Shown here in pieces: positions 4,403-54,332 of a stretch of 64,000 nt of DNA. The translations under genes and the position numbers were made by a program. The notes under the pieces are model-generated. The model had not been told where the DNA came from, did no database searches, and saw only the letters and a list, made by a program, of their open reading frames with translations. Position 1 is the first letter of the stretch, and each line of letters opens with the position of its first letter. Source of the DNA: Streptomyces canus 299MFChir4.1 (lineage in GTDB: Bacteria; Actinomycetota; Actinomycetes; Streptomycetales; Streptomycetaceae); assembly GCF_000383615.1 (NCBI RefSeq), contig NZ_KB911582.1:590425-654424 (forward strand). Direction: 5' to 3'.

Positions 4403-4418
4403 CGGTGCCCCTCTCGGC

Positions 4419-10961: not shown

Positions 10962-12089
10962 TCAAGGGTGCAGGATCACCAGATCGTCCCGGTGGACGAC
11001 CTCCCGCTCGTAGGCCGGCCCCAGTTCGCGCGCCAGCTCCCGGGTGGAGCGGCCGAGGAGCCGCGGGATCTCCTTGGCGTCGAAGTTGACGAGCCCGCGG
11101 GCCACGGCGTGCCCGGTGCCGTCGCGCAGTTCGACCGGGTCGCCCGCGACGAACTCGCCCTCGACGCCAGCGATCCCGGCCGGCAGCAGCGAGGTGCGGC
11201 GGTCGACGACCGCCTTCACCGCGCCGTCGTCCAGGATCAGCGCGCCCTGCGGGGTGGAGGCGTGCTGGAGCCACAGCAGCCGGTCGGCGGAGCGCTTGCC
11301 CGCGGGGTGGAAGTAGGTGCCGGTGTCACCGCCGGACAGCGCCTCGGCCGCGTGGACCGCGCTGGTCAGCACCACGGGGATGCCGGCGGCGGCCGCGATC
11401 CGGGCCGCCTCGACCTTGGTGACCATGCCGCCGGTGCCGACGCCCGCCTTGCCGGCGCTGCCGATCTCGACGCCCGCCAGGTCCTCGGGACCGCGCACTT
11501 CGGCTATCCGCGAGGTCCCGGGCTTGCTCGGGTCTCCGTCGTAGACGCCGTCGATGTCGGAGAGCAGGACGAGCAGGTCGGCGTGGACCAGATGGGCCAC
11601 CAGGGCCGCCAGCCGGTCGTTGTCGCCGAAGCGGATCTCGTCGGTGGCGACGGTGTCGTTCTCGTTGACGATCGGCAGGGCGCCCATCGCCAGGAGCTTG
11701 TCGAGGGTGCGGGAGGCGTTGCGGTGGTGGGCGCGGCGGCTCATGTCGTCGCTGGTCAGCAGGATCTGGCCGACGCGGACGCCGTAGCGGGCGAAGGAGG
11801 CGGTGTAGCGGGCGACGAGCAGGCCCTGGCCGACGCTGGCGGCGGCCTGCTGGCGGGCGAGGTCCCGGGGGCGGCGGCGCAGGCCCAGCGGGGCGAGTCC
11901 GGCGGCGATGGCTCCGGAGGAGACGAGGACGATCTCCTTCTCTCCTCCGCTGCGGCTCTTGGCGAGGACGTCGACGAGCGCGTCGACCCGGTCGGCGTCG
12001 AGGCCGCCGGCGGCGGTGGTCAGCGACGAGGAACCGACCTTGACGACGATTCTGCGGGCCTCGCCCACGGCCTGCCTTGCCCCTGCCAC
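10962..12089 (-). CDS. proB: glutamate 5-kinase
   Basis: GTG at 12087-12089 gives 375 residues, the usual size of the two-domain enzyme. It phosphorylates glutamate, the first step of proline synthesis. The amino-acid-kinase domain shows RIVVKVGSSSL, LVSSGAIAAGL, NENDTVATDEIRFGDND and GTGGMVTKVEAA. A C-terminal PUA domain (about residues 285-370) contains GPAYEREVVHRDDLVIL. Many bacteria carry obg-proB-proA in a row; here obg lies 12.7 kb to the right beyond a wall-polymer block. A second GTG nine codons in is a possible start. Confidence 0.96.
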   Translation of the reverse strand: MAGARQAVGEARRIVVKVGSSSLTTAAGGLDADRVDALVDVLAKSRSGGEKEIVLVSSGAIAAGLAPLGLRRRPRDLARQQAAASVGQGLLVARYTASFARYGVRVGQILLTSDDMSRRAHHRNASRTLDKLLAMGALPIVNENDTVATDEIRFGDNDRLAALVAHLVHADLLVLLSDIDGVYDGDPSKPGTSRIAEVRGPEDLAGVEIGSAGKAGVGTGGMVTKVEAARIAAAAGIPVVLTSAVHAAEALSGGDTGTYFHPAGKRSADRLLWLQHASTPQGALILDDGAVKAVVDRRTSLLPAGIAGVEGEFVAGDPVELRDGTGHAVARGLVNFDAKEIPRLLGRSTRELARELGPAYEREVVHRDDLVILHP

Positions 12090-12320
12090 CTTGTGTCCTG
12101 TCCCCTCGCGCCACTGTGGGTACCTCGCCCGCAATGTACGCGAAGGGGACGCGGCGACGCGCATCCGTCCGATCCCCGGACCCGATACCGGACGCCTTCG
12201 GGGAGCCGTCCGGTTCCCGTTCCGAGAAAAGCGGAAGTACACCCTCCCATTAATCGGAAGTGAATTCTTTCTGACATCCGGATGTACAACCTTCAGTCAT
12301 CCACCCGTGTCGAACTGGCC

Positions 12321-14315
12321 ATGAACATCCGTCGGCTGTGCGCCGTCCTGCGCGTTCGCGGGAAAACCGAACTTCTCCTGGTGATCCTTTTCGCCGCCGG
12401 TTTCGCGGCGCTCCCCGTCCTGGCGCTGCTGCCGTCGCTATGGGGGTTCACGGCGGCGTGGGCCGTGACGTATCTGGCCGACGAGGCACTGCACACGAAG
12501 GCCCCGGGCTTCGTCCGCCGCCTGGCGACCCTGCAGCTCAGCCGCACGATGCGGTTCGCCGTACGGACGGTGATGCTGCTCGCCCTGGCCGACCGGACGG
12601 ACGCACCGGACGCGGTGCTGATCACCGGGCTCGCCGTCCTCAGCGCCCATGTCCTGCTGGTGATGATGTATTCGGCGCTGCATCACGCGATCCGCAGGCG
12701 GCGCGTACTCCCGGTGGTCGTGCGCAATCTCGACATGAGCGGGATCGACATACCCGAACGGCCGCCCGCCTGGCTCTATCGGCGTTTCCTGCGCAAGCTG
12801 CTCCACCTCGACCTGCCGGCTCACGCGGGACTGATCGCCGCGCTGGCCACCGGAACCTGGTATGCCGCCTACGCCGGCTACGCGCTGACCATCGGCGCCG
12901 CCTCGGTCGCCCTGGCGGCCCTGCTGGGACAGTTCCGCGCGGTCCGCCGGATGCCCGGCCGGGACGCGGTGATCGACGGGGTCAACCGCCAACTGGCCGC
13001 GTACCGGCCCGAGGTTGCCCTGTACTTCAGCTTCGCCGCGGTGTCCCGGGACTTCATGTACCAGGTCAACATGTGGATCGAGACGCTGGAGCAGCTCGAC
13101 CGGCGCCCGGTGATCGTCCTGCGCGAGCGGGCCTCGTTCCGCTTCCTCGCCCGCACCCGTATCCCCGTGGTCTGCGTGCCCAAGGCCGACGACCTGGCCG
13201 AGCTGGACCTGTCCGGCGTCCAGGTCGTGCTCTACCCCGGCAACGCCGGCAAGAACGTCCACATGCTGCGGGTCGCCGAGGCCAAGCACGTCTTCATCGG
13301 CCACGGCGACAGCGACAAGCTCGCCAGCAGCAACCGGGTCAGCAAGGTGTACGACGAGATCTGGGTGGCCGGAAAGGCGGGCCGGGACCGCTATCAGAGG
13401 GTGCGGCACGCCATCAGTGACGAGGCCATCGTCGAGGTGGGCCGCCCGCAGCTGGCCCCGGTCCGCTCGCACGCCGAGCACGTCCCCGGCCCGGTGCCCG
13501 TCGTCCTCTACGCGCCCACCTGGGAGGGCTGGAGCGACGACGACTGCCACACCTCCCTGATCACGATGGGCGTACCCCTGATCGAGGGGCTCCTCGCGGA
13601 GGACGTGCGGATCATCTACAAGCCGCACCCCCTCACCGGCAAGCGCTCGCCCGAGGCGGCCGCCGCGGACCGGACCATCAGGGAGCTGCTGCGGGGCGAC
13701 GAGAAGAAGGGCGCGGAGGCCTCGGAGGCCGCCGGAGCCCGGCTCCAGGAGATCCGGGCCCGGCTGGACGAGATGTCCGGCCGCCACGAGGGCGACGACG
13801 CCCAGCAGGTGCGGGACGCGCGGGTCCCGGACGGGGACGGCGCGGCCGAGTGGCAGGAGCTGCGGGACGAGTGGCACCGGATCTTCTGGGCGAGCCGGAG
13901 CGGCGCCCGGCACCACGTGATCCTCGAACAGCTCCCCACCCTGTACGAGTGCTTCAACCAGGCGGACCTCCTCGTCAGCGACGTCTCCTCGGTGGTCGCC
14001 GACTTCGTGGCCAGCCTCAAGCCGTACGTCCTGACCAACGCCCAGGACCTGCCCGACGAGGAGTTCCGGGCCGCCTACACCACCGCGGGCGGCGCCTATC
14101 TGCTCGACCGGGCCTGCACCCGGCTGCCGGAGATCCTGCGCTCGGTCCGCGAGCCCCTGCACGACCCCATGGCCGCGCGGCGCCGCACGCTCAAGGAGTA
14201 CGTGCTGGGCCCGGACCGTCCGACCTCCATGGAGCGGTTCAACGCGGCCGTCAACGACCTGGCCGACCGGTCGACGGCGGAACGCGCCGAGGACCTGCTG
14301 GCCCCGCTCGCCTGA
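12321..14315 (+). CDS. TagF/TarL-like polyol-phosphate (teichoic acid) transferase, copy 1
   Basis: This 664-residue protein has hydrophobic helices in the first 140 residues, then a CDP-glycerol/CDP-ribitol glycerophosphotransferase domain. Key motifs are FIGHGDSDKLASSN (about 330), YAPTWEGW (about 395), YKPHPLTGK (about 433) and LLVSDVSSVVADF (about 551), which form the donor site in this GT-B family. Such enzymes add glycerol- or ribitol-phosphate units to lipid-linked primers at the membrane. ATG 12321 is preferred over 12282 because it matches the start of the paralogue at 16340-18421. About 70 extra charged residues lie between the KPHP and SDVSS motifs. It diverges from proB, and a decayed copy follows. 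Confidence 0.85.
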   Translation: MNIRRLCAVLRVRGKTELLLVILFAAGFAALPVLALLPSLWGFTAAWAVTYLADEALHTKAPGFVRRLATLQLSRTMRFAVRTVMLLALADRTDAPDAVLITGLAVLSAHVLLVMMYSALHHAIRRRRVLPVVVRNLDMSGIDIPERPPAWLYRRFLRKLLHLDLPAHAGLIAALATGTWYAAYAGYALTIGAASVALAALLGQFRAVRRMPGRDAVIDGVNRQLAAYRPEVALYFSFAAVSRDFMYQVNMWIETLEQLDRRPVIVLRERASFRFLARTRIPVVCVPKADDLAELDLSGVQVVLYPGNAGKNVHMLRVAEAKHVFIGHGDSDKLASSNRVSKVYDEIWVAGKAGRDRYQRVRHAISDEAIVEVGRPQLAPVRSHAEHVPGPVPVVLYAPTWEGWSDDDCHTSLITMGVPLIEGLLAEDVRIIYKPHPLTGKRSPEAAAADRTIRELLRGDEKKGAEASEAAGARLQEIRARLDEMSGRHEGDDAQQVRDARVPDGDGAAEWQELRDEWHRIFWASRSGARHHVILEQLPTLYECFNQADLLVSDVSSVVADFVASLKPYVLTNAQDLPDEEFRAAYTTAGGAYLLDRACTRLPEILRSVREPLHDPMAARRRTLKEYVLGPDRPTSMERFNAAVNDLADRSTAERAEDLLAPLA

Positions 14316-14340
14316 CGCACCTCCGCACCGCACCTCCCCG

Positions 14341-15005
14341 CCCGGCAAGGCACGACCGTGCTGTACGCCCCGACCTGGGAGGGCTGGGACGGCAACCCGG
14401 CAACACGTCGGTGATCGAGGCGGGCGAGAACCTCGTGCGGGCGCTGCTGGCGGACCCGGGGGTACGGCTGCCCGTCGACGACGGTGAACTCTCGCGCAGG
14501 ACCGAGGAGTTGGACCGGCTCACCATCGCGACCTTCCGGACCGCCGCGGACTCGGTCGAGCGGATGCTGCTGCAGTCCACGCCGGAGGCGGGCCGTGCCG
14601 AGGCGGTGGTCCGGGCGACGGCGGCCTGGGAGCGGGCGTACTGGGCCTCGCTGCCGGAGTGGGAGCACCAGGTCGTGACCGACGTCCGGCCCGCGCTGTA
14701 CGGCTGCTTCAACCGGGCCGACCTGCTGATCAGCGATGTGTCCAGCGTGGTCAGCGACTTCCTGGCGAGCGGGAAGCCGTACGCCGTGGCCAACACCGGC
14801 GGGTTGAGCGAGACCGCGTTCCGTGCGGCCTTCCCCACGGCGGGGGCGGCGACCGCGCTGACGCCGGACGCGGCGGGGGCGCCCGCGCCGAGCTGAAGCG
14901 GCGGTTGCTGGGGCCGGACGAGCCGAGTGCGCAGGAACGGTTCGACAGGGCCGTTCAGGCGTTGAGCGCGGTGGCCCGGGGGCGCAGGCTGCCGGGGCAG
15001 CGGCG
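14341..15005 (+). pseudogene. remnant of a third TagF-like transferase gene
   Basis: The region encodes recognisable pieces of a TagF-like protein but in broken frames. TVLYAPTWEGWDGNP is readable from 14352, then one base is missing and the next frame continues NTSVIEAGENLVRALL. After GVR a block including the KPHP motif is absent. The text resumes with a Trp-rich helix and ADLLISDVSSVVSDF (about 14721-14760). After 14896 the last part (LKRRLLGPDEPSAQERFDRAV) is in yet another frame. The N-terminal half is missing. It most resembles the 16340-18421 product. At least two frameshifts and one deletion make function unlikely. It starts 25 bases after the intact copy. Confidence 0.85.
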
Positions 15006-15037
15006 GGACGAGGAGACGGTGTGCGCCTCGGGGACGC

Positions 15038-16231
15038 TCAGGCCGCCGGGGTGAGAGCCCGGCGCGCCTTGCGGACCGCCCGCCGCAGCAGCTGGTCGAC
15101 GCCGACCTCCCGGTAGCCCGGCACCTCCCTGGCCTCGCGCGGCTCGGCCAGGTAGACGGAGTCGGGCAGGCCCGTCGGCCCGTCGCGGAAGAACGGGTAG
15201 GCGAAATACACCCGGCGGCCGCCCTTCTCCAGCACCGGCTGAGGGGTCTTCTTCGCCCTCATGAACTCCAGGACCTCCACCAGGAGGTCCGGGCGGCCCA
15301 TCGCCACCAGCTGGAGCCGCAGACGTTCGTGGACGCGGAGACGGTGGGCCACCTCGCCCGTCCAGTAGGCGTCCACCAGGGGCTTCGCCAGCTCCAGCTT
15401 CTCCTGGCGCACCGCCTCGCCGTCCTTCAGGAACTTCGGACCGAACTGCGGGAGCAGGGTGACGAGGAAGGGCCGGACCATCAGTGCGTCGCGTCTCGCG
15501 CCCGCCGGGACCATGTCGGCTATCAGGTTCATCAGGGCGCGCGCGGAGTCGAAGCGCAGAGTGTGGCTGCCGGTCCTGGTGACGTGCTTGCCGTCCTCGC
15601 GGCCCACCAGGTAGTAGCAGGTGTGGTCGGCGATCACGGAGACGCCGTCGGCCCGCAGATAAGCCTCCATGGTGAACAGGGCGTCCTCACCGGTCCACAG
15701 GGACTCGTCGAAGCGCATGCTGTGCCGTTCGAGGAACGCGCGGCGGAACAGCTTCTGCGCGCTCAGCGTGAACTTGATGTTGGAGGAGAACACGTCGGTG
15801 CGCTCCAGGGTCTGCCCCCACATCGACGTCGGCGGCTTGCGGTTGACGCCCTCGACCCGGCCGAGGACGACGTCCGTGCCGTTGCGGTCTGCCATCGCGA
15901 CCATCCGCTCCAGGGCCTCGGGGCCGAGCCGGTCGTCGGCGTCGAGGAAGAAGACGTACCGCCCGGTCGCCTTTCCCAGACCGACGTTGCGCGGGCCGCT
16001 GGGGCCGCCGGAGTTGTCCTGCCGGATCACCGTGACGTCGAGGGACGTGCGCGCGGCGAACTCCTCCAGGTACTCGCCGGTGCCGTCCGCCGAGCCGTCG
16101 TCGACCGCGATGACCTCGACGCGGGCGTGGCCGATCGTCTGCGCCTCGACGGAGGCCAGGCAGTCGACCAGGTACGGCATCGCCTCGTAGGCCCCGATGA
16201 CCACGGTCACATCAGGCTGGGCAAGGGACAC
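15038..16231 (-). CDS. GT2 family glycosyltransferase
   Basis: GTG at 16229-16231 with GAGGGGG just upstream gives 397 residues. It has a GT-A fold: VTVVIGAYEAMPYLVDCLAS at the start, DDGSADGT for nucleotide binding, SGPRNVGLGKATGRYVFFLDADD with the metal-binding D-x-D-D, and WTGEDALF further on. No membrane segment is visible, so it is probably cytoplasmic and transfers a sugar to a lipid-linked acceptor. It resembles the N-terminal domain of the larger transferase at 27779-29779. Placed between teichoic-acid-type genes, it probably glycosylates the wall polymer or its linkage unit. Donor and acceptor are unknown. Confidence 0.85.
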   Translation of the reverse strand: MSLAQPDVTVVIGAYEAMPYLVDCLASVEAQTIGHARVEVIAVDDGSADGTGEYLEEFAARTSLDVTVIRQDNSGGPSGPRNVGLGKATGRYVFFLDADDRLGPEALERMVAMADRNGTDVVLGRVEGVNRKPPTSMWGQTLERTDVFSSNIKFTLSAQKLFRRAFLERHSMRFDESLWTGEDALFTMEAYLRADGVSVIADHTCYYLVGREDGKHVTRTGSHTLRFDSARALMNLIADMVPAGARRDALMVRPFLVTLLPQFGPKFLKDGEAVRQEKLELAKPLVDAYWTGEVAHRLRVHERLRLQLVAMGRPDLLVEVLEFMRAKKTPQPVLEKGGRRVYFAYPFFRDGPTGLPDSVYLAEPREAREVPGYREVGVDQLLRRAVRKARRALTPAA

Positions 16232-16280
16232 TGTTCCCCCTCGGCGCGGTGGGTTGTTCCGACGCCCAGGGATACGCAGG

Positions 16281-16323
16281 AAGGGCCCGGTTTTCGGGAT
16301 CACCCCCGAAAACCGGGCCCTTT
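16281..16323 (-). terminator. terminator of the second TagF-like gene
   Basis: Perfect 18-base arms at 16281-16298 and 16305-16322 (core gggcccggttttcggg) with a 6-base loop. It lies 17 bases past the stop of the leftward gene and upstream of the GT2 start. Confidence 0.85.
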
Positions 16324-16339
16324 CTTTACGAAGGGGAGG

Positions 16340-18421
16340 TCAGGCCTTGGTCGTGGCCTCGGCCTCCGCCGCGGAGGCCGCCGCCCGTGACTCCTGGCCG
16401 ACATTGCGCGCCTCGGCCTTGATCGCGAGGTTGGCGACCGCGGTGTTGAACTGCTCGATGGACGTGGGCTCGTCCGGTCCGAGCAGGTACTGCTTGAGCT
16501 CCACCCGGTCCTCGGCCAGCAGATCGGCCGCCGGGTCGCGGACCGCGTCCAGCAGCTCACCCAGCTCGGTGGCCTTGTTGGACAGGATCGTGGCGGCCCG
16601 CACCGCGGTGTTCTGCCGCTTGAACTCCTCCACGCCCAGCTCCGCGGAGTCCGTGACCGCGTACGGCTTGCCGCTCGCGATGAAGTCGGAGACCACGCTG
16701 GAGATGTCGGAGACCATCGCGTCGGAGACGTTGAAGCAGTCGTAGAGCCGCGGTTCGGCGCCCGTGACCACCCGGTGCTCCCACACCGGGAAGGCACGCC
16801 AGTACGCGTCGTTCCACTCGCCGCGCAGCCGCGCGATCTCCTCGTACTTGGCCACGTCGACCACACCGTCACGGGTGGCCTCGGCCTCGTCGCCCTTCTC
16901 GCCGCCGCTGCCGACCAGGACGGCGAGCCGCGCCTCGATGCGGGCGAGCTCGGCCTTGGCCGCGGCCGACACGGTCGCGTCGGCCTGGAAGCGGGGGTCC
17001 GTGGCGCGCTCGGCGGCGGCCTTCTCGATCAGTGCGGTGACCTTCTGGTGCGCGGCGCCCGCCTTGGGCAGAACCGTGCCGGTGAAGGGGTGCGGCTTGT
17101 AGAGGACACGGACCGGCGGGTCGGCCTTCAGCAGCTTCTTCACGATGTTCTCGCCGGCCAGCATCAGCGAGGTGTTGCCCGGGTTGCCGTCCCAGCCCTC
17201 CCAGGTGGGCGCGTAGAGCACGGTCGGGCAGGATCCGTCAGCGGCTCCGCCGCGGGGACCCTCGGGCACGCCCTGCCCGTTCTGGATCGGCGCCAGCTGC
17301 GGGCGGCCCACCTCGACGATGTCCTCGTCGCGCACACCGACATCGGCGATGGCGTAGCGGTCGCGGCCGGCCCGGCCGGCCACCCACACCTCGTCGTACG
17401 CCTTGCTGAACGGGTTGACGCTCGCCAGCTTGTCGCTGTCGCCGTGGCCGATGAAGACGTGCTTCATGGTGGGCACGCGCAGCAGGTGGATGTTCTTGCC
17501 GACGTTCGCCGCGTACAGCGCGACGCGCACCGTGGACAGGTCCATGTTCATCAGATGCACCCCTCCGGGCACGCAGATGACGGGGACCGTGGTGGGCGCG
17601 AGGTTCTGCAGGATGACGCGCTCCCGCAGGATGATCAGCGGCCGGGAGTCCAGCTGCTCCATGGTCTCCAGCCACATGTTGACCTGGTAGACGGAGTCCT
17701 TGGAGCCGGAGAAGTAGAGCACCGTCTCCGGCTGGTAGTCGCGCAGCCATTCGTCGACCTTGGCGAGCACCTTGTCGGCGTTCGGCGGGACCTTCTTGCC
17801 CCGCACGTACGGCATCAGCGCGAGGACGTACAGGGAGCCGAGCACTATCGTCACGCCGATGCCGATGAAGCCCGGCAGCGCCGCGTCCATCGCGGCGGCG
17901 ACGAGTATGCCGACCACGGCCGCGAGGTCGAGGTGGAGCATCTTCTCGGCCGACCGGTTCAGCAGGCCCAGCGGCGGGGCGTCCGGGATGCGGATGCGGG
18001 AGGCCAGGTCGACGTTGCGGGTGGCGACCGGGAGCCGGCGGCGGTTGCGGATCAGGGTGACCAGCGCGCCGTGCGGGGCCTGGAGGCCGTAGAACGCGAT
18101 GAAGCAGGCGGTGGCGCCGTAGAAGATCAGGTTGTTGGAGAGGTCGAGCCGGGCCAGCAGCAGGATCAGCAGGAGCTGTCTGATCAGGAAGCGGATCGAC
18201 AGTCCGGCGCGCACCTTGCTGAGGCGGTTGATCAGATAACTGCCCTGGCGGTGCAGATAGTGGTCCGCAAGGTACGTGACCGCGGTCGCGGCCGCGAAGG
18301 CGGGGACGCTCGGGATGAGCGCGGCCACCATTATGGCGGGGAAACCCGCCAGCATGAGGACCGCCGCGGCCAGCTCGGCCGCGCTGCCCACCCGGGCGAC
18401 GCGAATAGCAGTGCTTATCAC
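16340..18421 (-). CDS. TagF/TarL-like polyol-phosphate (teichoic acid) transferase, copy 2
   Basis: The 693-residue protein starts with GTG at 18419-18421. It has membrane helices in the first 150 residues and again near 180-215, then the transferase domain. Motifs are FIGHGDSDKLASVN (about 325), YAPTWEGWDGNPGNTS (about 405), YKPHPFTG (about 440) and AMVSDISSVVSDF (about 568). Like copy 1 it carries a long charged insertion between the last two motifs. It likely extends a glycerol- or ribitol-phosphate chain. Its own terminator lies at the 3' side, and a hairpin between it and the upstream cytidylyltransferase gene suggests a separate transcript. Substrate choice (glycerol or ribitol) cannot be read from sequence. 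Confidence 0.87.
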   Translation of the reverse strand: MISTAIRVARVGSAAELAAAVLMLAGFPAIMVAALIPSVPAFAAATAVTYLADHYLHRQGSYLINRLSKVRAGLSIRFLIRQLLLILLLARLDLSNNLIFYGATACFIAFYGLQAPHGALVTLIRNRRRLPVATRNVDLASRIRIPDAPPLGLLNRSAEKMLHLDLAAVVGILVAAAMDAALPGFIGIGVTIVLGSLYVLALMPYVRGKKVPPNADKVLAKVDEWLRDYQPETVLYFSGSKDSVYQVNMWLETMEQLDSRPLIILRERVILQNLAPTTVPVICVPGGVHLMNMDLSTVRVALYAANVGKNIHLLRVPTMKHVFIGHGDSDKLASVNPFSKAYDEVWVAGRAGRDRYAIADVGVRDEDIVEVGRPQLAPIQNGQGVPEGPRGGAADGSCPTVLYAPTWEGWDGNPGNTSLMLAGENIVKKLLKADPPVRVLYKPHPFTGTVLPKAGAAHQKVTALIEKAAAERATDPRFQADATVSAAAKAELARIEARLAVLVGSGGEKGDEAEATRDGVVDVAKYEEIARLRGEWNDAYWRAFPVWEHRVVTGAEPRLYDCFNVSDAMVSDISSVVSDFIASGKPYAVTDSAELGVEEFKRQNTAVRAATILSNKATELGELLDAVRDPAADLLAEDRVELKQYLLGPDEPTSIEQFNTAVANLAIKAEARNVGQESRAAASAAEAEATTKA

Positions 18422-18477
18422 TGAAAACCTGCTCTGGGAGGGATGCCGGTTGTTTACGAATTAACGGTGCTTAAGGC

Positions 18478-18526
18478 TTCAGGCCCCTGTGAATGCGCCA
18501 GGAACGGGCAGCCACAGAGGCCTGAA
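18478..18526 (-). terminator. terminator after the cytidylyltransferase-SDR gene
   Basis: 14-base arms at 18478-18491 and 18513-18526 around a 21-base loop. The one imperfect pair is a U-G wobble only on the minus strand, indicating leftward transcription. It sits 26 bases past the gene's stop. Confidence 0.65.
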
Positions 18527-18551
18527 TTTACCGAAAACTAATTGTCCCTGA

Positions 18552-20051
18552 TTATGCCACGCCGTCCTGACGGTCCAGGACACTCGCCAGCGCGGCCTCG
18601 AAGCCGGAGGCCTGGCCCGCGGAGGCCGTCGGGTCCTGCTGGCGGACGTCGATGACATGCCCGGTCAACTCGGAGAGCAGCACGTCGAGCGAGGTGCGGG
18701 CCACCGCCTCGGAGGACAGCAGGCTGCCCGCGGGCTCCTGCCCGAAGGCCTTGGTGCGCATGGGCGTGGCGGTGCGCTCGGGGTTGATGCAGTTCACCCG
18801 GACGCCATCACCCGCCCATTCGTCGGACAGGGCCTGCGTGAGGTTGACCATCGCCGCCTTGGTCGAGGAGTACAGGCTGTACTCGGCGCGGCCGCGGGTG
18901 TAGCTGCTGGAGGTGTACAGCAGCAGCTGGCCCTTGGTCTCCGCCAGGTACTTGTACGAGGAGCGCGCGATCTGCACCGGGGCCAGGTAGTTGACCTTCA
19001 GCGCCTCCTCGATGGTGGCGTTGTCGGTCTCCGCCAGCTTGCCGATGCGCAGCACGCCCGCGGTGTTGACGACGTAGTCGATGCGCCCGGTCTCGGCGTA
19101 CGCCTTGGACAGCGCGTCGTCGACCTCCTCCGGGTTCTCGACGTGGGTGCCGGTGGTGGAGCGGCCCAGCGCGTACACCTTGGCGCCGTAGGCCTCGGCG
19201 AGCTCGCCGATGTCCTTGCCGATGCCGTAGGAGCCGCCGAAGACGACGATGGTCCTGCCGGTGAGCAGCTCGCGGTAGGCATCGTCGCTGACCTGCTCGG
19301 GAGCGGCGGTCGAGGCGAGCTGGAAGAGCTTGTCGGCGATGAAGACGTCGACGGGCTGGGTGACCTTCATGTTGTACTCGTCACCCGCGACGACGTGGAT
19401 CGGCACGTCCGGCAGGTACTTGAGCACGACCGAACAGTCGTCCGTGGCCTGGAAGTTGGGGTCACCGGAGGCGACCTCGTAGGCGCGCTTGATGGTGGAC
19501 AGCTTGAAGGCCTGCGGGGTCTGGCCGCGGCGCAGCCGGGAGCGGTCCGGGATCTCGGTGATGAACTCGCCGTCGTCGCCGTGCTTGCGCGTGACGATGA
19601 TCGTGTCCGCGGACGGGATCGCGACGTCGACGGCCTGGTAGCGCTCGAGGGCGACCACGCAGTCGTCGATCACGCGCCGCGAGAGCAGCGGGCGTACGGC
19701 GTCGTGGAACAGGACGTTGAGGTCCTCGCCCTCGGCCAGGCCCTCGCCGAGGGCCTCGATGGCGCGCTCGGTGGTCTCGTTCCGGGTGGAGCCACCCTCG
19801 ATGATCTTCTTGACCTTCGTGAACCCGGCCTTGGCGACGATCTTCTCTATGTCGGGCACGTAGCCGGGCGCCATCAGGACGATGATGTCGTCGATGGAGT
19901 CGGCCTTCTCAAAGGTGGTCAGGGTGTGCTCGATGACTGCCTTGCCGGCGATCTTCAGCAGCTGCTTGGGGATCGAGAGACCCACGCGCTGACCGGTACC
20001 ACCGGCCAGGATCACTGCGGTGGTACGGGGCTTGGCGATGTGCTGGGACAC
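18552..20051 (-). CDS. bifunctional cytidylyltransferase / short-chain dehydrogenase (CDP-ribitol-type, Bcs1/TarIJ-like)
   Basis: GTG at 20049-20051 with GAGGTAGG upstream gives 499 residues. Residues about 8-240 are an IspD/TarI-like cytidylyltransferase: VILAGGTGQRVGLSIPKQLL, LFHDAVRPLLS and RRGQTPQAFK. Residues about 260-490 are an SDR: GGSYGIGKDIGELAE for NAD(P), NTAG, and the catalytic YSLYSSTKAAM (YxxxK). The same fusion order occurs in Haemophilus Bcs1, which reduces ribulose 5-phosphate and makes CDP-ribitol. The likely product here is CDP-ribitol for the neighbouring TagF-like transferases. A pure IspD role is unlikely because of the fused reductase. The exact polyol needs testing. 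Confidence 0.85.
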   Translation of the reverse strand: MSQHIAKPRTTAVILAGGTGQRVGLSIPKQLLKIAGKAVIEHTLTTFEKADSIDDIIVLMAPGYVPDIEKIVAKAGFTKVKKIIEGGSTRNETTERAIEALGEGLAEGEDLNVLFHDAVRPLLSRRVIDDCVVALERYQAVDVAIPSADTIIVTRKHGDDGEFITEIPDRSRLRRGQTPQAFKLSTIKRAYEVASGDPNFQATDDCSVVLKYLPDVPIHVVAGDEYNMKVTQPVDVFIADKLFQLASTAAPEQVSDDAYRELLTGRTIVVFGGSYGIGKDIGELAEAYGAKVYALGRSTTGTHVENPEEVDDALSKAYAETGRIDYVVNTAGVLRIGKLAETDNATIEEALKVNYLAPVQIARSSYKYLAETKGQLLLYTSSSYTRGRAEYSLYSSTKAAMVNLTQALSDEWAGDGVRVNCINPERTATPMRTKAFGQEPAGSLLSSEAVARTSLDVLLSELTGHVIDVRQQDPTASAGQASGFEAALASVLDRQDGVA

Positions 20052-20195
20052 AGAAGACCTACCTCGGGGCGACAGGGAACGGGGAAATGGTCCCACTTGC
20101 GGTTACCGCTGTGCAAGGTGACCGCCGTTCACTGCATATGTACGCGCTACCTGTCATTCATCTTGCACTGCCGGTAACGACGACCGTGCGGGAGT

Positions 20196-21359
20196 TCAGC
20201 GCCGGCGCAGCTTCTTCAGGCACCGGTGTCCCAGTACCCGCATCAGCTCCTTCGACGACGTCTGATGCACCGTACGCGCCTTGGCCGCCGAGGCGAGCGC
20301 CCCGTAAAGCGCCTGGGCCGCCACCTCCGGGGAGATCCGCGGCGCGGGGATCCCGGCCGGCGCGGGCGCCTTCGGTACGGCGGACAGGAGACCTGGGTCA
20401 CCGACCATCCGCACGCCCGTGTCCGCGATGTTCCGGGCCATCTCGGCACCGATCCCGGCAGCGGCTTCCACGGCCCACTTCGGAGTGAGGATCTTCACGT
20501 CCTCGGGCGAGGGACTGCACGCGTTCTTCATATGCATGACGGCGCCGTTGCGAACGAGCCTGGAATACAACTCGTCGGGCAGTCCATTGCCACGGAATTG
20601 CTTGTTAAGATTCCGCAGCATTTCGGTCTCGGCGAGAGTAAGAGAACGATTCGCGGCGTCCGGGACGGGCTGGAGGAGATTCTCGGGAAGCCCGAGGAGC
20701 TGTTCGAAAGTGCGCAGCAGACCACCACGGTCGCGGTCGTCGACCACGAGGACGGTGATCCGCTCGGGACCGACCGCCCGCATCCAGCGCGCCACGAGCC
20801 GGTCGTGCCGGTGGCGGCGCCAGAAGGTGGGGTTGGGCTGCTCGTACGGCGCCTTCCGCAGCATGTGGGTGAGCCAGTCCTCGTAGCCCATGCGCAGGCC
20901 GTTCTGCACGTACTGCTGCCACTGCGAGGGCATGATCCGCACCAGCGGACGCAGTGTGACCAGCACGTGCGAGCGGTCCCCGCCGAGCTGCTCGACGATC
21001 CGCGCGACCGTGTCGTCGTCCTCGGCGTCGGCGAAGAACTCGCTGCTGATCACCGAGGTCATCGCGCCGGTTGCCCCGATCTGTTCCAGCAGCCGCGTCC
21101 AGTGCTTCTCGGTGGGCGCGGTGTCGCCCATCATCGCGGGCCTCGCGCACGCGGCCAGGGCGGCTTCCATGGGGTGCCTGCTGCGCGCCGGGAAGACCAC
21201 GCCGTGCTCGGGCAGCTGGGCCTTCGCCGCGAACAGCGCGCCCTGGACGGCGGTCGTGCCGGTCTTGTGGGGGCCGATGTGCAGCAGGCGCGTGCCGACG
21301 GGCAGCGGAGCGGTCACGCCGTTCACCGGAAGGTCGTCTCTCGTACAGTCCGTCTCCAT
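20196..21359 (-). CDS. sulfotransferase-like protein
   Basis: ATG at 21357-21359 gives 387 residues. Near the start, RLLHIGPHKTGTTAVQGAL matches the 5'-phosphosulfate-binding loop (PKTGTT-type) of PAPS-dependent sulfotransferases and related P-loop proteins. A VLVTLRPLVRIMPSQWQQYV stretch (about residues 130-150) fits the 3'-phosphate-binding region. No signal peptide or membrane helix is evident. The segment about 20520-20660 has visibly lower GC than its neighbours, a hint of foreign origin. It may modify the wall polymer or another surface glycan, but the acceptor is unknown and a non-sulfating role cannot be excluded. The Shine-Dalgarno is poor. Confidence 0.72.
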   Translation of the reverse strand: METDCTRDDLPVNGVTAPLPVGTRLLHIGPHKTGTTAVQGALFAAKAQLPEHGVVFPARSRHPMEAALAACARPAMMGDTAPTEKHWTRLLEQIGATGAMTSVISSEFFADAEDDDTVARIVEQLGGDRSHVLVTLRPLVRIMPSQWQQYVQNGLRMGYEDWLTHMLRKAPYEQPNPTFWRRHRHDRLVARWMRAVGPERITVLVVDDRDRGGLLRTFEQLLGLPENLLQPVPDAANRSLTLAETEMLRNLNKQFRGNGLPDELYSRLVRNGAVMHMKNACSPSPEDVKILTPKWAVEAAAGIGAEMARNIADTGVRMVGDPGLLSAVPKAPAPAGIPAPRISPEVAAQALYGALASAAKARTVHQTSSKELMRVLGHRCLKKLRRR

Positions 21360-21450
21360 AGTCGGAGGACGGTAAGAGAAGTGCCTGAGTGTCACCTGAG
21401 AGGAGCGTGGGACTGTGCTGAGGAGCACGCCCCTCTCAGGCGACCCGCGC

Positions 21451-23001
21451 TCACGCGGGCCGTACCCCCGGCTTGCCCGCGTCCACCCGCAGCTGCGCCA
21501 GCGTGCTCGCCGTCGCCTCCGGCCTGACCACCGTGTCCACGGCCCTGACCTGCGCGTCGATGCCGTACCGGTCGATGTCGAAGAGGTGGTAGCCGCGGTG
21601 GGCGTCGATGAACTTCCAGTGCGGGTTGTCCGCCATCAGCGGGTCCCACTGGGCGTGGAAGGCGGCCTGGTCCTGGTCGCCGTTGCTGGAGATGGACGTA
21701 CCGACGAACTCGGCGCCGACGACCCGGGAGGACGGGTCGGCGTAGTCCACCTTGAGGTCGCTGATCATCGTCAGATGGCGGTCCCCGGAGAGCACGACCG
21801 GGTTGCGCACGCTCCTGAACTCCTCCAGGAGGGCGTTGCGTTCGACCTGGTAGCCGTCCCAGGCGTCGTAGTACCAGAGCTTGCCCTCGCCGGGCAGGAT
21901 GTCGGTCTCGGCCATCATGATCTGCGAGGCGATGAGGTTCCAGCGGGCCGGTGAGCCGTGCAGCCCGTCCAGGAGCCACTGCTTCTGCTCGGCGCCGAGC
22001 ATGGTGAGCGAGGGATCCTGTGCGGCGGCCTGGCTGGTGACCTGGTCGCTGCGGAACTGGCGGGTGTCGAGCACGTTCAGCCGGACCAGCCGGCCGAACT
22101 CCAGGCGCCGGTACATCTGGATGTGCGGGCCGTTCGGGACGGCGGTGGCGCGCACCGGCATGTGCTCGTAGTACGCCTGGAAGGCCGCCGTGATCCGGTT
22201 TACGAAGGTGTCGTGGGGCTGCTTGTCGGGGTCCTGCGGGATCTCCCCCGCCCAGTCGTTGTCGACCTCGTGGTCGTCGAAGGTGACCACCCAGGGCGTG
22301 CTCGCGTGGATCTCGGCGAGGTCCGGGTCGGTGCGGTACTGGGCGTACCGGTTGCGGTACTGCGCGAGGGTGTACGGCTCCCCCGTGCCCTCGTGCCGGC
22401 GCGGGCCCGCCGACGACGGCGCCGACTCGTAGATGTAGTCGCCGACGAACAGCACGACGTCCGGGTCCTGGTCGAGCATGTCGGCGTACGGAGTGAAGTA
22501 GCCGTTCTGCCAGTTCTGGCAGGAGGCGAGCGCGACCCGGAGGCTGCCGCCGGAGCTGTGCGGGGCGGGGGCGGTGCGGGTGCGGCCGGTGCGCGAGAGC
22601 TGGCCGTCGGCGCGGAAGCGGTACCAGTACGTACGGCCCGCGCGCAGTCCCCGTACGTCGACGTGGACGCTGTGTCCGTACGCGGGCAGGGCCTGGGCGG
22701 TGCCGCGGCGGACCACCTTTCTGAAGCGCTGGTCCTCGGCGAGCTCCCATTCGACCGGCACCACCCGGTCGGGCATGCCTCCGCCGTTCAGCGGATCGGG
22801 GGCGAGCCGGGTCCACAGCACGATGCCGTCCGGCAGCGGGTCGCCGGAGGCCACGCCGAGGCTGAACACTCCGTCGGGCAGCGGGGGCTCCGCCGCTCGC
22901 GCGGTCCCCGGCAGCCACAGCTGGGCGGAGGCGGCGGCGCCGAGCACGGCGGCACCGGCGGTCAGAAAGCGGCGTCGGCCGGGTGATGCTGCTCCGTACA
23001 T
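21451..23001 (-). CDS. PhoD-family alkaline phosphatase / phosphodiesterase, Tat-exported
   Basis: The 516-residue protein begins with a twin-arginine signal (PGRRRFLTAGAAVLGAA), so it is exported folded. After a short N-terminal domain comes the metallophosphatase core: VLFVGDYIYE, FDDHEVDNDWAG and LSGDRHLTM supply the Fe/Ca ligands known for PhoD. Family members cleave phosphate monoesters and diesters; B. subtilis PhoD degrades wall teichoic acid. Its position beside TagF-like and CDP-ribitol-type genes suggests a role in trimming or recycling the strain's own polymer. No PHO-box was identified with confidence. About 90 bases separate it from the sulfotransferase-like start. Confidence 0.9.
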   Translation of the reverse strand: MYGAASPGRRRFLTAGAAVLGAAASAQLWLPGTARAAEPPLPDGVFSLGVASGDPLPDGIVLWTRLAPDPLNGGGMPDRVVPVEWELAEDQRFRKVVRRGTAQALPAYGHSVHVDVRGLRAGRTYWYRFRADGQLSRTGRTRTAPAPHSSGGSLRVALASCQNWQNGYFTPYADMLDQDPDVVLFVGDYIYESAPSSAGPRRHEGTGEPYTLAQYRNRYAQYRTDPDLAEIHASTPWVVTFDDHEVDNDWAGEIPQDPDKQPHDTFVNRITAAFQAYYEHMPVRATAVPNGPHIQMYRRLEFGRLVRLNVLDTRQFRSDQVTSQAAAQDPSLTMLGAEQKQWLLDGLHGSPARWNLIASQIMMAETDILPGEGKLWYYDAWDGYQVERNALLEEFRSVRNPVVLSGDRHLTMISDLKVDYADPSSRVVGAEFVGTSISSNGDQDQAAFHAQWDPLMADNPHWKFIDAHRGYHLFDIDRYGIDAQVRAVDTVVRPEATASTLAQLRVDAGKPGVRPA

Positions 23002-23118
23002 GGGCGAACTCCCTTACGTCGCTGACCTCTTGGGCACCCTGGAAGCTCACGCTTCGGGGTGATCCGTGCGTTGAACCAGAGTGTTCGCGTGCATGACAAA
23101 TAGGTAGACAACAGAAGA

Positions 23119-23168
23119 GCCGTTGCGACTCGGGTATCACATGATGAACGTGATCCCGGCGCAACGGC
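23119..23168 (-). terminator. terminator between the FG-GAP and phoD-like genes
   Basis: Outer arms gccgttgcg (23119-23127) and cgcaacggc (23160-23168) enclose a second near-perfect stem (cgggtatcac with gtgatcccgg). It lies 36 bases past the stop of the leftward FG-GAP gene. Confidence 0.75.
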
Positions 23169-23203
23169 CTTCAGGACACTGCCGACTGACGATCTTTTGG
23201 TTT

Positions 23204-24721
23204 CTAGTTGGCGAATTCCGAGCCCAGACGGGCCTTCGCCGCGGTGGTGCCGAGGAGGGTGTGGCCGAAGGTGAACGTGCCGTCAGGCCCCAGGATGGTG
23301 GCCGGAATCGGCACCCCACCGGGCGAGACGACGTACTGGCCCCGGGACCGGAAGGACCACACGGACCCCGCACCAGCGTTCTCGCCGGGCGCGCCGACCG
23401 CGACGTCGGCCAGTCCGTCGCCGTTCGCGTCACCCACATGGACGGCTCCGCCGAAGGCGTCGCCCTTCTCGGTGGCCCCCGGGACCCCCGGACTGTCCTG
23501 CGTGACCACCTGGTGGGAGCCCACTCCGGTCAGCCCGTCGGCCCGGCCGCTCAGCACGACGACCGCGCCGGCGTCCTTGACGGAGTTCGGTGCGGTGGCG
23601 GGGCCCAGGTCCTCGCCGGGCACGCCGGTGACCACGTCGAGGAAGCCGTCCCCGTCGACGTCCGCGAGTTGCACGTCGGTGCCGAAGCGGTCGCCCTTCT
23701 CGGCGGTGCCGGGGACGCCGGGGCTGTCCTGGTTGACGGCCTGCTCCGCCACTCCGTCGGGAGCGCCCGAGGTGCCGGGTATCCAGGTGACCCGGCCGCC
23801 CTTGGCCCGGTAGGCGTCGTGGTCGCTCTCGTAGCCGTCGACGGCCCGGCCCACCACGATGTCGGCGTAGCCGTCCCGGTTCACGTCCCCGACCGCGAGG
23901 TTCTCGCCGCCCTGGAGCGCGGCGCCGTCGATGTCCCAGACCAGGGTCCAGGGCGTGAGGCCGTCCTTGGTGCCCCACCAGTACGCGATCCGCCGGGAGT
24001 CGAAGGTGTCGGTGCCGGTCTGGGCGGCAACGACGTCGGTGATCCCGTCGCCGTTGAGGTCGCCGACGTCGAGGTCGAGGACGCGGCTGTCGTACCTGTC
24101 CTTCACCACCTGGCGCTTCCCGGTGGCGGAGCCGGAGCGGGTGAAGGGGCCGCCGGTCGCCACCAGGCCGTACCGGTCCACCGCCGTCAGCAGATCGGTC
24201 GCGCCGTCCCCGTCGACGTCGGCCGCAGCGAGGTGGCCCTGGGCGCCGAGCCCTTGGCCGGCCGCACCGGAGGCGAGGGTGGCACCGCCCGCCAGACCGC
24301 GTGCACCGCCCCAGACGACCTGCACCCGGCCCGAGCCCCTGTCCTCGCCGCCCACGCCCACGATCAGGTCGGTGTACCCGTCCCGGTCCAGGTCGGCGGT
24401 GGTGAGCGCGCTGCCGAAGCGGTCGCCCGCCTCGGAACCGCCCGGGACGCCCGCCGTGTTCTGGCTGAACACCTGCTTCGTCGAGGACTTCAGGCCGCTC
24501 GCCGAGCCGTACAGCACGCCGACGAAACCGGCCTTCGCCCGCCCCGCGACGGTCCCGTCGGGCGCGGCCACCGCGAGGTCCGCGTAGCCGTCCCCGTTGA
24601 AGTCGTCCCGCACCTGGTGAGGGGCGGCCGCGGCCCCCGCGGTGGCGGGCAGGGCGACCGCACCGCCGACCGCCAGGACGACGGCGAGTGCCGTGCGCCA
24701 TCCTCTTCGTTGTACGCGCAT
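23204..24721 (-). CDS. secreted FG-GAP (integrin-like beta-propeller) protein
   Basis: ATG at 24719-24721 has AGGAGGG seven bases upstream and gives 505 residues. A Sec signal peptide (RRGWRTALAVVLAVGGAVAL...ATAGA) occupies the first 30 residues. Seven repeats follow, each with a calcium-binding loop of the type DxNxDGxxD: DFNGDGYAD, DLDRDGYTD, DVDGDGATD, DLNGDGITD, DVNRDGYAD, DVDGDGFLD and DANGDGLAD. This predicts a seven-bladed propeller. Several blades also share VNQDSPGVPG/VTQDSPGVPG segments. Such proteins bind glycans or proteins outside the cell. Its place at the end of the wall-polymer block suggests surface attachment, but no catalytic site is visible. Confidence 0.85.
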   Translation of the reverse strand: MRVQRRGWRTALAVVLAVGGAVALPATAGAAAAPHQVRDDFNGDGYADLAVAAPDGTVAGRAKAGFVGVLYGSASGLKSSTKQVFSQNTAGVPGGSEAGDRFGSALTTADLDRDGYTDLIVGVGGEDRGSGRVQVVWGGARGLAGGATLASGAAGQGLGAQGHLAAADVDGDGATDLLTAVDRYGLVATGGPFTRSGSATGKRQVVKDRYDSRVLDLDVGDLNGDGITDVVAAQTGTDTFDSRRIAYWWGTKDGLTPWTLVWDIDGAALQGGENLAVGDVNRDGYADIVVGRAVDGYESDHDAYRAKGGRVTWIPGTSGAPDGVAEQAVNQDSPGVPGTAEKGDRFGTDVQLADVDGDGFLDVVTGVPGEDLGPATAPNSVKDAGAVVVLSGRADGLTGVGSHQVVTQDSPGVPGATEKGDAFGGAVHVGDANGDGLADVAVGAPGENAGAGSVWSFRSRGQYVVSPGGVPIPATILGPDGTFTFGHTLLGTTAAKARLGSEFAN

Positions 24722-24822: not shown

Positions 24823-26259
24823 TCAGAAGGGTTCGAAGTCGTCGAACTCCTGGGCCGCCTCGTCCCGTTCGGCCTGCTTGTCGCGTCGGCGCTGGGCGGC
24901 GGGCCGGGGCTCCTCGAAGCGGTGGTCCTCGCCGCGCCGGCCGAGCATCTCGGCGCCGGCCATGACGGTCGGCTCCCAGTCGAAGACGACGGCGTTGTCC
25001 TCGGGGCCGATGGCGACGCCGTCGCCCGAACGGGCGCCCGCCTTCATCAACTCCTGTTCCACACCGAGGCGGTTGAGGCGGTCGGCGAGGTAGCCGACGG
25101 CCTCGTCGTTGCTGAAGTCGGTCTGCCGCACCCAGCGCTCCGGCTTCTCGCCGCGCACCCGGAACAGCCCGTCCTCCTCGCGGACCACGCTGAAGCCCGC
25201 GTCGTCCACGGCCTTGGGCCGGATGACGATCCGGGTCGCCTCCTCCTTGGGCCTGGCGGCCCGCGCCGTGCCGACCAGGTCGGCGAGCGCGAAGGAGAGC
25301 TCCTTCAGCCCCATGTGGGCGACGGCGGACACCTCGAAGACGCGGTAGCCGCGCGCCTCCAGATCGGGCCGCACCATCTCGGCGAGGTCCTTGCCGTCCG
25401 GTACGTCGATCTTGTTCAGGACGACGATGCGGGGACGGTTGCCGAGGCCGCCGTACTCCTTGAGCTCCGCCTCGATGATGTCGAGGTCGGAGACCGGGTC
25501 GCGGTCGGACTCCAGCGTGGCGGTGTCCAGGACGTGCACGAGGACGCTGCAGCGCTCCACGTGCCGCAGGAACTCCAGGCCGAGGCCCTTGCCCTGGCTG
25601 GCGCCCGGGATCAGGCCCGGCACGTCCGCGATGGTGTAGACGGTGTCGCCCGCGGTGACCACGCCCAGGTTCGGGACCAGCGTGGTGAAGGGGTAGTCGG
25701 CGATCTTCGGCTTGGCCGCGCTCAGCACCGAGATCAGCGAGGACTTGCCCGCGCTCGGGTAGCCGACCAGTGCCACATCGGCGACCGTCTTGAGCTCCAG
25801 GACGATGTCCTGGAGGTCGCCGGGCACGCCGAGCAGCGCGAACCCGGGGGCCTTGCGGCGGGCGGAGGCCAGCGCCGCGTTGCCGAGACCGCCGCGGCCG
25901 CCCTGGGCGGCGACGTACGACGTGCCGTGCCCGACCAGGTCGGCGAGGACGTTGCCCTGCCGGTCGAGGACGACGGTGCCGTCCGGCACCGGCAGGACCA
26001 GGTCCTGGCCGTCCTTGCCGGAGCGGTTGCCGCCCTCACCGGGCTTGCCGTTGGTGGCCTTGCGGTGCGGGGAGTGGTGGTAGTCGAGCAGCGTGGTGAC
26101 GGACTGGTCGACGGTCAGGATGACGTCGCCGCCCCGTCCGCCGTTTCCGCCGTCGGGACCGCCGAGCGGCTTGAACTTCTCCCGGTGGACGGAGGCACAG
26201 CCGTGACCTCCGTTACCCGCGGCGACATGCAGTTCGACGCGGTCCACGAAGGTGGTCAT
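24823..26259 (-). CDS. obg: GTPase Obg (CgtA)
   Basis: The 478-residue protein has the Gly-rich Obg fold (about 1-155), a G domain with GYPSAGKSS near residues 167-175, [12 protein letters not shown] and NKID, and a C-terminal OCT domain typical of Gram-positive Obg with an acidic/basic tail. It binds the large ribosomal subunit and couples GTP levels to ribosome maturation; in Streptomyces it has been tied to the onset of aerial growth. It lies 121 bases downstream of rpmA, the usual order, but a hairpin in between suggests partial uncoupling. The proB gene that often follows is displaced. Confidence 0.97.
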
Positions 26260-26380: not shown

Positions 26381-26635
26381 TCAGGCGACCGGAACGATGT
26401 TCACGACCTTGCGGCCACGGTGGGTACCGAACTCCACCGCACCGGCGTTCAGCGCGAACAGCGTGTCGTCGCCGCCACGGCCGACGCCCGCACCCGGGTG
26501 GAAGTGGGTACCGCGCTGGCGGACCAGGATCTCGCCCGCGTTGACGACCTGACCACCGAAGCGCTTCACGCCGAGGCGCTGAGCGTTGGAGTCACGACCG
26601 TTACGGGTGGACGATGCGCCCTTCTTGTGTGCCAT
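26381..26635 (-). CDS. rpmA: 50S ribosomal protein L27
   Basis: The 84-residue product starts [20 protein letters not shown], the characteristic basic tail that reaches into the peptidyl-transferase centre. It continues with [18 protein letters not shown] and ends in the VEFGT...VVNIVPV segment. Length and sequence are standard. The N-terminus is not of the cleaved Firmicutes type. It follows rplU by 14 bases and is surely co-transcribed. Confidence 0.98.
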
Positions 26636-26649: not shown

Positions 26650-26970
26650 TTACTTCGCAGCCGCGGGGATCTCAGTGACCTTGATCGCCGTGTACTGCTG
26701 GCGGTGGCCCTGACGACGGCGGTAGCCGGTCTTGTTCTTGTAGCGAAGGATGTCGATCTTGACGCCCTTGTGGTGGTCCACGACCTCGGCCTGGACCTTG
26801 ATGCCGGCCAGGACCCACGGGTCGCTGGTCACAGCGTCGCCGTCGACAACGAGCAGGGTCGAGAGCTCGACCGTGTCGCCAACCTTGGCAGTGGAAATCT
26901 TGTCAACCTCAACGATGTCGCCGACAGCAACCTTGTGCTGGCGACCACCGCTGCGCACGATGGCGTACAC
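26650..26970 (-). CDS. rplU: 50S ribosomal protein L21
   Basis: GTG at 26968-26970 ([14 protein letters not shown]) gives 106 residues, the normal L21 size; the open frame upstream to 27105 is leader. The C-terminal [25 protein letters not shown] region (here [15 protein letters not shown]) is diagnostic. L21 binds 23S rRNA early in large-subunit assembly. GAGAGAGTGAG upstream acts as the Shine-Dalgarno region. The gene heads rplU-rpmA, with obg beyond a hairpin. Confidence 0.98.
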
Positions 26971-27770: not shown

Positions 27771-27778
27771 CGGGGGTC

Positions 27779-53563: not shown

Positions 53564-53643
53564 TGCGGCTGCCGCCCCCTCTCAGTGTGTGTCTGTGTCA
53601 TATCCGGCGAACCTGTGAACGCGGTCCGCCGACTCGCGCGGGG

Positions 53644-54321: not shown

Positions 54322-54332
54322 GACTACAGCTC

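Follow-up and report, generated by a model that had tools for sequence, protein, structure and literature searches.

A sulfotransferase-like gene in a predicted ribitol-phosphate teichoic acid locus of Streptomyces canus

We studied a stretch of 64,000 nucleotides (the window) from Streptomyces canus 299MFChir4.1, at positions 590425-654424 of its contig in a genome of 10.48 Mb and 116 contigs. Between proB and obg is a head-to-tail row of six minus-strand genes, one of which encodes a sulfotransferase-like protein, which we will call ST. We propose that this is a known kind of ribitol-phosphate wall teichoic acid (WTA) locus whose ST would likely sulfate that polymer; we give this joint proposal a probability of about 0.5. 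That the locus is for ribitol WTA is probable, and if it is, we lean towards the polymer, or sugars on the polymer, being what ST sulfates.

In order of transcription, the six genes encode an FG-GAP propeller, a PhoD-type protein, ST, a fused cytidylyltransferase-reductase (CDR), a TagF-like protein (TagF-B), and a glycosyltransferase of family GT2. The gaps between them are 202, 91, 147, 130, and 111 bp, in that order. Every gene listed in a first-pass annotation of this DNA is found between proB and obg. That annotation also read the interval as a locus for a polyol-phosphate wall polymer of the ribitol-phosphate type. The matches of CDR and TagF-B support a polyol-phosphate, most likely ribitol-phosphate, polymer, as do the co-occurrence of the genes and nuclear magnetic resonance (NMR) results for Streptomyces griseus from Zhao et al. 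(Cell 2025; PMC13274773), whose main text reports WTA of the ribitol-phosphate kind for both S. griseus and S. antibioticus.

Predicted synthesis of the polymer

CDR (18552-20048, minus strand) is a fusion of an IspD-type cytidylyltransferase with an SDR reductase, as judged by Pfam, NCBIfam, and PDB matches and by motifs. Its first half scores above the NCBIfam cut-off for D-ribitol-5-phosphate cytidylyltransferase, and in a sequence search of the PDB, the two best matches to this half are both named ribitol-5-phosphate cytidylyltransferase. We do not favor an identity as IspD, of isoprenoid synthesis, whose cut-off is missed. Both domains are in one chain, which we take to be the architecture of Bcs1, and the motifs that we take to be catalytic (LAGGTGQR, GGSYGIG, NTAG, and YSSTK) are intact. 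CDR is thus predicted, from its sequence, to be a CDP-ribitol synthase of the Bcs1 or "TarIJ" type.

TagF-B (16340-18421, minus strand; 693 amino acids) has a helical N-terminal region (residues ~14-205) with hydrophobic stretches, followed by a GT-B domain. It matches PF04464 (E = 1.1e-6) with 28.4 bits against a cut-off of 22.1, though over a short stretch, and its top Foldseek match is TagF. A sequence search of the PDB gave no match for TagF-B alone and only weak ribosomal matches for its profile. We predict that it is a membrane-bound ribitol-phosphate polymerase. GT2 (15038-16228, minus strand) matches PF00535 (E = 2.3e-32) and has a TarS-type linker (PF22181, TarS_linker, E = 1.2e-10), and it is predicted to be a glycosyltransferase that acts on the ribitol-phosphate chain.

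We also considered that ribitol might not be the polyol of the polymer, which could instead contain a different pentitol, a branched polyol, or a mixture; the comparison with the Tar proteins would then mislead as to the chemistry. CDR has an SDR reductase, while the TarJ of staphylococci is of the zinc type, and the several TagF-like enzymes at one locus suggest more than one donor. The WTA of S. griseus also contains glycerol phosphate. However, the cytidylyltransferase of CDR is nearest to ribitol-5-phosphate enzymes, and the WTA of S. griseus belongs mainly to the poly(ribitol phosphate) type, as described in the same text (PMC13274773). So a polyol other than ribitol, or a mixed polymer, seems quite unlikely.

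The sulfotransferase-like protein

ST (20196-21359, minus strand) is predicted to be a protein with the sulfotransferase fold that depends on 3'-phosphoadenosine 5'-phosphosulfate (PAPS). Its AlphaFold2 model (mean confidence score, pLDDT, 83.8) matches sulfotransferase structures. The nearest folds to the model are heparan sulfate 3-O- and N-sulfotransferases and the Alicyclobacillus sulfotransferase 3rnl, which have PAPS-site motifs in common with ST, although they are only 11-18% identical to it in structural alignments. ST has the conserved motifs HIGPxKTGTT and R137-x7-S145, which we take to be the 5'-phosphosulfate loop and the 3'-phosphate motif (R-x7-S) of the PAPS site. The key positions of both are invariant across 24 aligned proteins and 80 loci. 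Sequence searches of the PDB gave two non-significant matches for ST alone (E ~0.4) and none for its profile. Among named records, the nearest ST is from S. pseudovenezuelae DSM 40212 (93% identity).

What the analysis establishes directly is which genes and families are present, how they are ordered and co-occur, and that they are under purifying selection; the folds are predicted. The activities that we infer for these proteins, and with them the presence of sulfate, would fit together as follows. CDR would reduce ribulose-5-phosphate and then activate the product with CTP to form CDP-ribitol. Inside the cell, membrane-bound TagF-B would build a chain of ribitol-5-phosphate units on a lipid carrier. 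GT2 and a second, TarS-like GT2, encoded in a block of rml genes beyond rplU, may add sugars. Before the polymer is exported, ST would add sulfate to the chain or to the sugars on it: ST has no visible signal peptide, so it would act where PAPS is made. PhoD, if exported by the twin-arginine translocation (Tat) system, could trim or recycle the finished polymer, and the FG-GAP propeller might be a looser companion at the surface.

Conservation and loss in relatives

We surveyed 150 genomes of the genus and made gene maps for 60 of them. (The 60 were selected, not drawn at random: 20 with ST or fragments of it, 20 others with CDR, and 20 without CDR.) We also examined named loci with ST, which are the best 80 of 207 relatives, or 79 after leaving out Actinopolymorpha. 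Of the 150 genomes, 81 have CDR, 27 have ST, whole or in part, and at least 119 have a TagF-B-like gene. All 27 genomes with ST have CDR, as compared to 54 of the 123 without ST (Fisher p = 7e-9, uncorrected for kinship). CDR is also present in 75 of 75 genomes with a TagF-B match of at least 60% identity (among the matches listed; the match in genome G050 is truncated). A 76th genome with TagF-B, G146 (76% identity, residues 371-686), is outside this count; with G146 included, Fisher p = 3e-34. Between obg and proB of G146, TagF-B lies in two frames without its N-terminal part, GT2 is in pieces, and there is no match to CDR, ST, or PhoD. This is a decayed cassette.

The order of the genes is also conserved. 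In 70 of the 81 genomes with CDR, its distance from obg is at most 12 kb (it is far away on the same contig in 6 and on another contig in 5). Of the 60 fetched loci, 37 have rplU, obg, CDR, and TagF-B on one strand in this order. In 78 of the 79 named loci, the gene directly downstream of ST is CDR; the remaining locus ends 30 bases past ST. The first-pass annotation had pointed to the sulfotransferase-like gene in this setting. The link is real and is tighter than a gene list could convey, with CDR beside ST in 78 of 78 testable loci. Nor are the genes scattered in relatives with no co-occurrence, which that annotation had named as one of two results that would refute it. We ruled out a chance neighborhood, as the gene order and the co-occurrence recur in dozens of genomes. 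Beyond the genus, a draw of 396 genomes from the phylum gave CDR in 2 that belong to other families. The ST gene of Actinopolymorpha is oriented divergently from an LCP-family gene and is followed by one for a hexapeptide-repeat protein.

Three genomes have divergent ST homologues (~45% identity) in a cluster of GT2, TagF-B, and CDR that is away from obg (L221, L222, and L223). In L221 and L223, ST is surrounded by an AT3-SGNH acyltransferase, a UDP-sugar dehydrogenase, and a pyruvyltransferase. We also noticed that genomes G047 and G105 have four ST homologues each (L221, L222, and L226-L229), two of them in a cluster with CDR.

ST could instead be a true PAPS-dependent sulfotransferase with another target, such as a side polymer, an intermediate on the lipid carrier, or a small molecule. 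There are sugar genes on both sides of obg, ST is found among sugar-modifying acyl-, pyruvyl-, and UDP-sugar genes in L221 and L223, and some ST homologues of G047 and G105 are not close to CDR. But ST tracks CDR at all of the testable loci and does not track the rml genes: rmlC matches are found in 21 of the 79 named loci and rmlD matches in 16 (with flanks limited to 10 kb). We consider another target unlikely.

To examine selection, we compared each gene to its counterpart in the window. Before computing medians, we left out some rows: short ones for ST (2), PhoD (3, plus 1 with a stop), GT2 (2), obg (2), and TagF-B (1), and weak ones for FG-GAP (8). The median identity to the window was 78% for ST, 79% for GT2, and 95% for CDR. 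The ratio of nonsynonymous to synonymous substitution rates (dN/dS) was 0.28 for ST (n = 77), 0.31 for GT2 (n = 74), 0.12 for CDR (n = 78), and 0.34 for TagF-B, which shows purifying selection; the ratio for FG-GAP, 0.53 (n = 24), was the highest of the seven genes measured. In a tree of 61 obg sequences, all 18 rows with an intact ST fall within a single 31-row group (support 92, not starred). ST changes 9 times on this tree if decayed copies are counted as absent or 5 times if they are counted as present, and it is reduced to pieces in five fetched loci (L093, L094, L095, L098, and L103). Because of this grouping, the dN/dS, and the decayed copies, ST looks old within its group on the obg tree, under selection, and repeatedly lost.

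If ST retained the fold but not the activity, it might be conserved for a structural or regulatory use. ST has decayed repeatedly in relatives and evolves faster than CDR, as its lower median identity indicates. However, the PAPS-site residues are invariant in 80 relatives, and the dN/dS of ST is not above that of TagF-B. So an inactive ST seems very improbable.

The interval between obg and proB varies from 155 bp (L127) to over 16 kb. It resembles a variable site for surface polymers: it is near-empty in L127, several of the genomes that lack CDR have other glycosyltransferase matches there, and in many there is a TagF antisense to obg. (Other examples of variable intervals are L099, L117, L118, L120, L123, L128, L129, and L133-L135.)

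Several observations weigh against our joint proposal. First, the adjacency of ST and CDR does not tell us the substrate of ST. Furthermore, two additional ST homologues in each of G047 and G105 lack a CDR within the 20 kb examined, and ST and CDR are on different contigs in G121 and G050. Second, the sequence of ST on its own matches no family in Pfam or NCBIfam, and Sulfotransfer_4 matches 13 of 24 ST relatives, weakly (best E = 0.0012). In Foldseek, ST has a single match at E ≤ 0.001 (3rnl), and P-loop proteins such as FtsY come next, at 1.6e-3. Also, ST is split into two pieces in 3 of the 79 named loci (L203, L211, and L213), one of them with a stop. Third, the fold of TagF-B is common to UDP-GlcNAc 2-epimerases and other GT-B enzymes; UDP-GlcNAc 2-epimerases lead its VIA ranking, and some GT-B enzymes exceed TarL in VIA Z. 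Fourth, we assign this locus to the S. griseus type on the basis of gene order and gene names, not sequence alignment, and the main text of Zhao et al. (PMC13274773) has no word beginning with "sulf" and none beginning with "PhoD". Finally, we found no match to PF03808 (TagA/WecG, the TarA family) anywhere in this genome; the same search was positive in 7 of 14 control genomes.

As there is no gene of the TarA family, the linkage unit would be unlike that of the staphylococcal scheme or would be made by another family, and we do not assign this locus to the canonical staphylococcal tar pathway. We recognized no gene for the linkage unit or for export in the proB-obg interval. The first-pass annotation had called the cassette complete, which is not borne out.

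Surrounding genes and known systems

The PhoD-type phosphodiesterase/phosphatase (21451-23001, minus strand) matches PF09423 (E = 1.3e-102) and PF16655 (E = 5.9e-34). It is in the same family as Bacillus subtilis PhoD (2yeq) over most of its length (E = 2e-135). Its score against the NCBIfam equivalog NF058638 (518.5 bits) is below the cut-off of 1000, so we do not assign it to that equivalog. Near its N terminus there is a Tat-like RRRFL motif, from which we predict export by Tat. The FG-GAP (integrin-alpha-like) propeller (23204-24721, minus strand; PF01839, E = 4e-47) has integrin alpha chains as its PDB matches (best E = 1.2e-9) and a hydrophobic, signal-like stretch at its N terminus. It is predicted to be a secreted and loosely linked surface companion. 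In L173, L087, L088, L093, and L186, at least three consecutive FG-GAP matches lie between obg and PhoD.

The first-pass annotation described the cassette as one to make, modify, and degrade the polymer, which is too strong for these two genes. Instead, PhoD may be a general phosphate scavenger and FG-GAP an unrelated surface protein, so that the degrading arm would be a mere neighbor. This is compatible with our proposal for the core of the locus, and we regard it as a serious possibility, if not quite an even bet. Among the 78 ST loci for which there is sequence upstream, 11 have kept ST but have no full-length PhoD. FG-GAP matches occur in 37 of the 79 named loci, and FG-GAP has many paralogues at other sites in these genomes (among the matches listed). 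Also, another PhoD-family enzyme from Streptomyces is a phospholipase D, as noted in PMC4223295. On the other hand, in 67 of the 79 named loci, the gene directly upstream of ST is a full-length PhoD (one of the other 12 has no upstream sequence), and it lies within 600 bp of ST in all 67. According to the same source (PMC4223295), B. subtilis PhoD has been proposed to act on wall teichoic acid, releasing phosphate, under phosphate starvation.

A second TagF-like protein, TagF-A (12282-14315, plus strand; 677 amino acids; PF04464, E = 9.9e-8), is a predicted polyol-phosphate transferase. Its gene is antisense to the main row, and it is 45% identical to TagF-B. Close relatives of TagF-A (at least 70% identity) are found in 2 of the 60 fetched loci and 6 of the 79 named loci. 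Next to it (14352-15051, plus strand) is the remnant of a third TagF-like gene, which we found by comparing an intact TagF of 686 amino acids from a relative (L076) to 14200-15100 of the window with tblastn. The remnant covers only residues 399-686 of the intact protein, with 73-100% identity. It is spread over three reading frames (14352-14399, 14369-14878, and 14890-15051), and its last few bases overlap with the GT2 gene at the 3' end of the latter. The open reading frame within it (14363-14896) has no match in Pfam. On another contig of the genome, a gene at C15:180967-182052 (L001, L235) matches PF04464 with E = 3.1e-121; it is the sole match among those listed in our search of this genome for PF04464, and TagF-A and TagF-B are not among them.

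The interval is flanked by proB (10962-12242, minus strand; NCBIfam confirms both proA and proB) and obg (24823-26259, minus strand; NF008954, GTPase ObgE, E = 2.5e-238). Beyond obg are rpmA (26381-26635, minus strand), which we take from its sequence to encode L27, and rplU (26650-26961, minus strand; TIGR00061, L21, E = 9.7e-24). Between rplU and an RNase E/G gene are rmlC, the TarS-like GT2, rmlD, rmlB, and rmlA (27177-32719, minus strand). The rml genes match TIGR01221 (rmlC) and, above the cut-offs, TIGR01214, TIGR01181, and TIGR01208, and the GT2 has a TarS_linker (PF22181, E = 7.6e-32) and a TarS_C1 match slightly below the cut-off. We predict that this block supplies dTDP-rhamnose and a second wall-polymer glycosyltransferase, for rhamnose side chains. 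Related loci have the same rml block, other arrangements of rml genes, or none within the flanks examined.

Beyond proA, an LCP-LytR_C protein (2576-4768, minus strand; PF13399 and PF03816 above the cut-offs) is a candidate for the wall-polymer ligase, and by its position it is likely the counterpart of PdtA (SCO2578). A cell-shape cluster (RodA, PBP2, MreC, and MreB) is at 50118-56508, ~24 kb from obg. A scan for sigma-70 promoters found none, terminator-like sites were not above shuffled controls, and an Rfam scan of 8-33 kb of the window found no conserved RNA at gathering scores. We also considered an anti-phage system, but PADLOC had no match for any of the seven proteins.

If our proposal is true, then teichoic acid can be modified by sulfate. 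Our searches of the open-licence PMC literature listed no report of sulfated teichoic acid, as judged by titles and the first part of abstracts; in the phrase search, the papers listed matched "sulfated glycopolymer" only. Streptomyces wall polymers are described as receptors in contests between species (PMC13274773), and a sulfate step would put a negative, possibly lectin-relevant mark on such a polymer. ST is carried by many sequenced strains of soil bacteria. We tentatively suggest, at a little under even odds, that part of Streptomyces makes a sulfated ribitol teichoic acid, that ST alters a surface bound by toxins and possibly by phages, and that the losses of ST reflect escape or relaxation.

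The combination of genes had seemed undescribed to the first-pass annotation. This holds for the sulfotransferase step but not for the core of the locus, which is already described in S. griseus and listed in S. coelicolor; the sulfotransferase step is therefore the new part. In the WTA-teichuronic acid (utr) locus of S. griseus and S. antibioticus, as presented in the main text of Zhao et al. (PMC13274773), rplU and rpmA serve as anchors, after which TarIJ and TagF come in the order also seen in the window (SGR_4953 for L21, SGR_4954 for L27, SGR_4956 for TarIJ, and SGR_4957 for TagF). We infer the presence of obg in the S. griseus locus from the gap in the locus tags. In the window, rplU, rpmA, and obg are followed by CDR and TagF-B on the same strand. 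In both, sugar genes and a gene for a TarS-like glycosyltransferase go with those for ribitol-phosphate WTA (predicted in the window), and the rml block is on the same side of rplU as SGR_4943 (UtrC), judging by locus tags. In contrast to the rml (rhamnose) genes of the window, the side-polymer genes of the utr locus are for diacetamido-uronic acids. Umbrella-toxin lectins bind the teichuronic acid linked to ribitol WTA, and the loci differ among species (PMC13274773).

The WTA genes of S. coelicolor are similar to those in the window by description only. SCO2589, SCO2590, and SCO2592 are presumably near obg. All three are listed as WTA genes in PMC3937824, on the basis of Kleinschnitz et al. 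2011. A review (PMC7831098) describes the major polymer of S. coelicolor as a phosphate-free teichulosonic acid, so having such genes need not mean that ribitol polymer is the major one. (Further background is in PMC11481543 and PMC7300013.)

Staphylococcus aureus TarIJ, TarL, and TarS resemble the proteins of the window in the kinship of the cytidylyltransferases, in the GT-B fold of the polymerase (8va1), and in the TarS-type linker of the GT2s. But in CDR the two steps to CDP-ribitol are fused, with an SDR reductase, TagF-B has a helical, membrane-type N-terminal region, and this genome has no gene of the TarA family. The predicted activity of CDR is that of Haemophilus influenzae Bcs1, which reduces ribulose-5-phosphate with NADPH and activates the product with CTP, according to PMC10299916. 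Unlike the proposed WTA, the product of Bcs1 and Bcs3 is a Gram-negative capsule with ribose in the chain, and Bcs3 is a multi-domain polymerase.

As for sulfation, a 2026 paper on Actinoplanes (PMC13390465) states that bacterial sulfated polysaccharides have been reported from cyanobacteria only. This is the view of that paper, as PMC11766843 deals with a sulfated capsule from Cobetia marina, a marine bacterium. The wps-1 cluster of Actinoplanes missouriensis is, as described there (PMC13390465), for a sporangium exopolysaccharide of the Wzx/Wzy type rather than a teichoic acid, and its sulfation is likewise predicted. Like the locus in the window, wps-1 belongs to an actinobacterium and is a glycan cluster; among its genes are predicted sulfotransferases, including one of the heparan-sulfate type.

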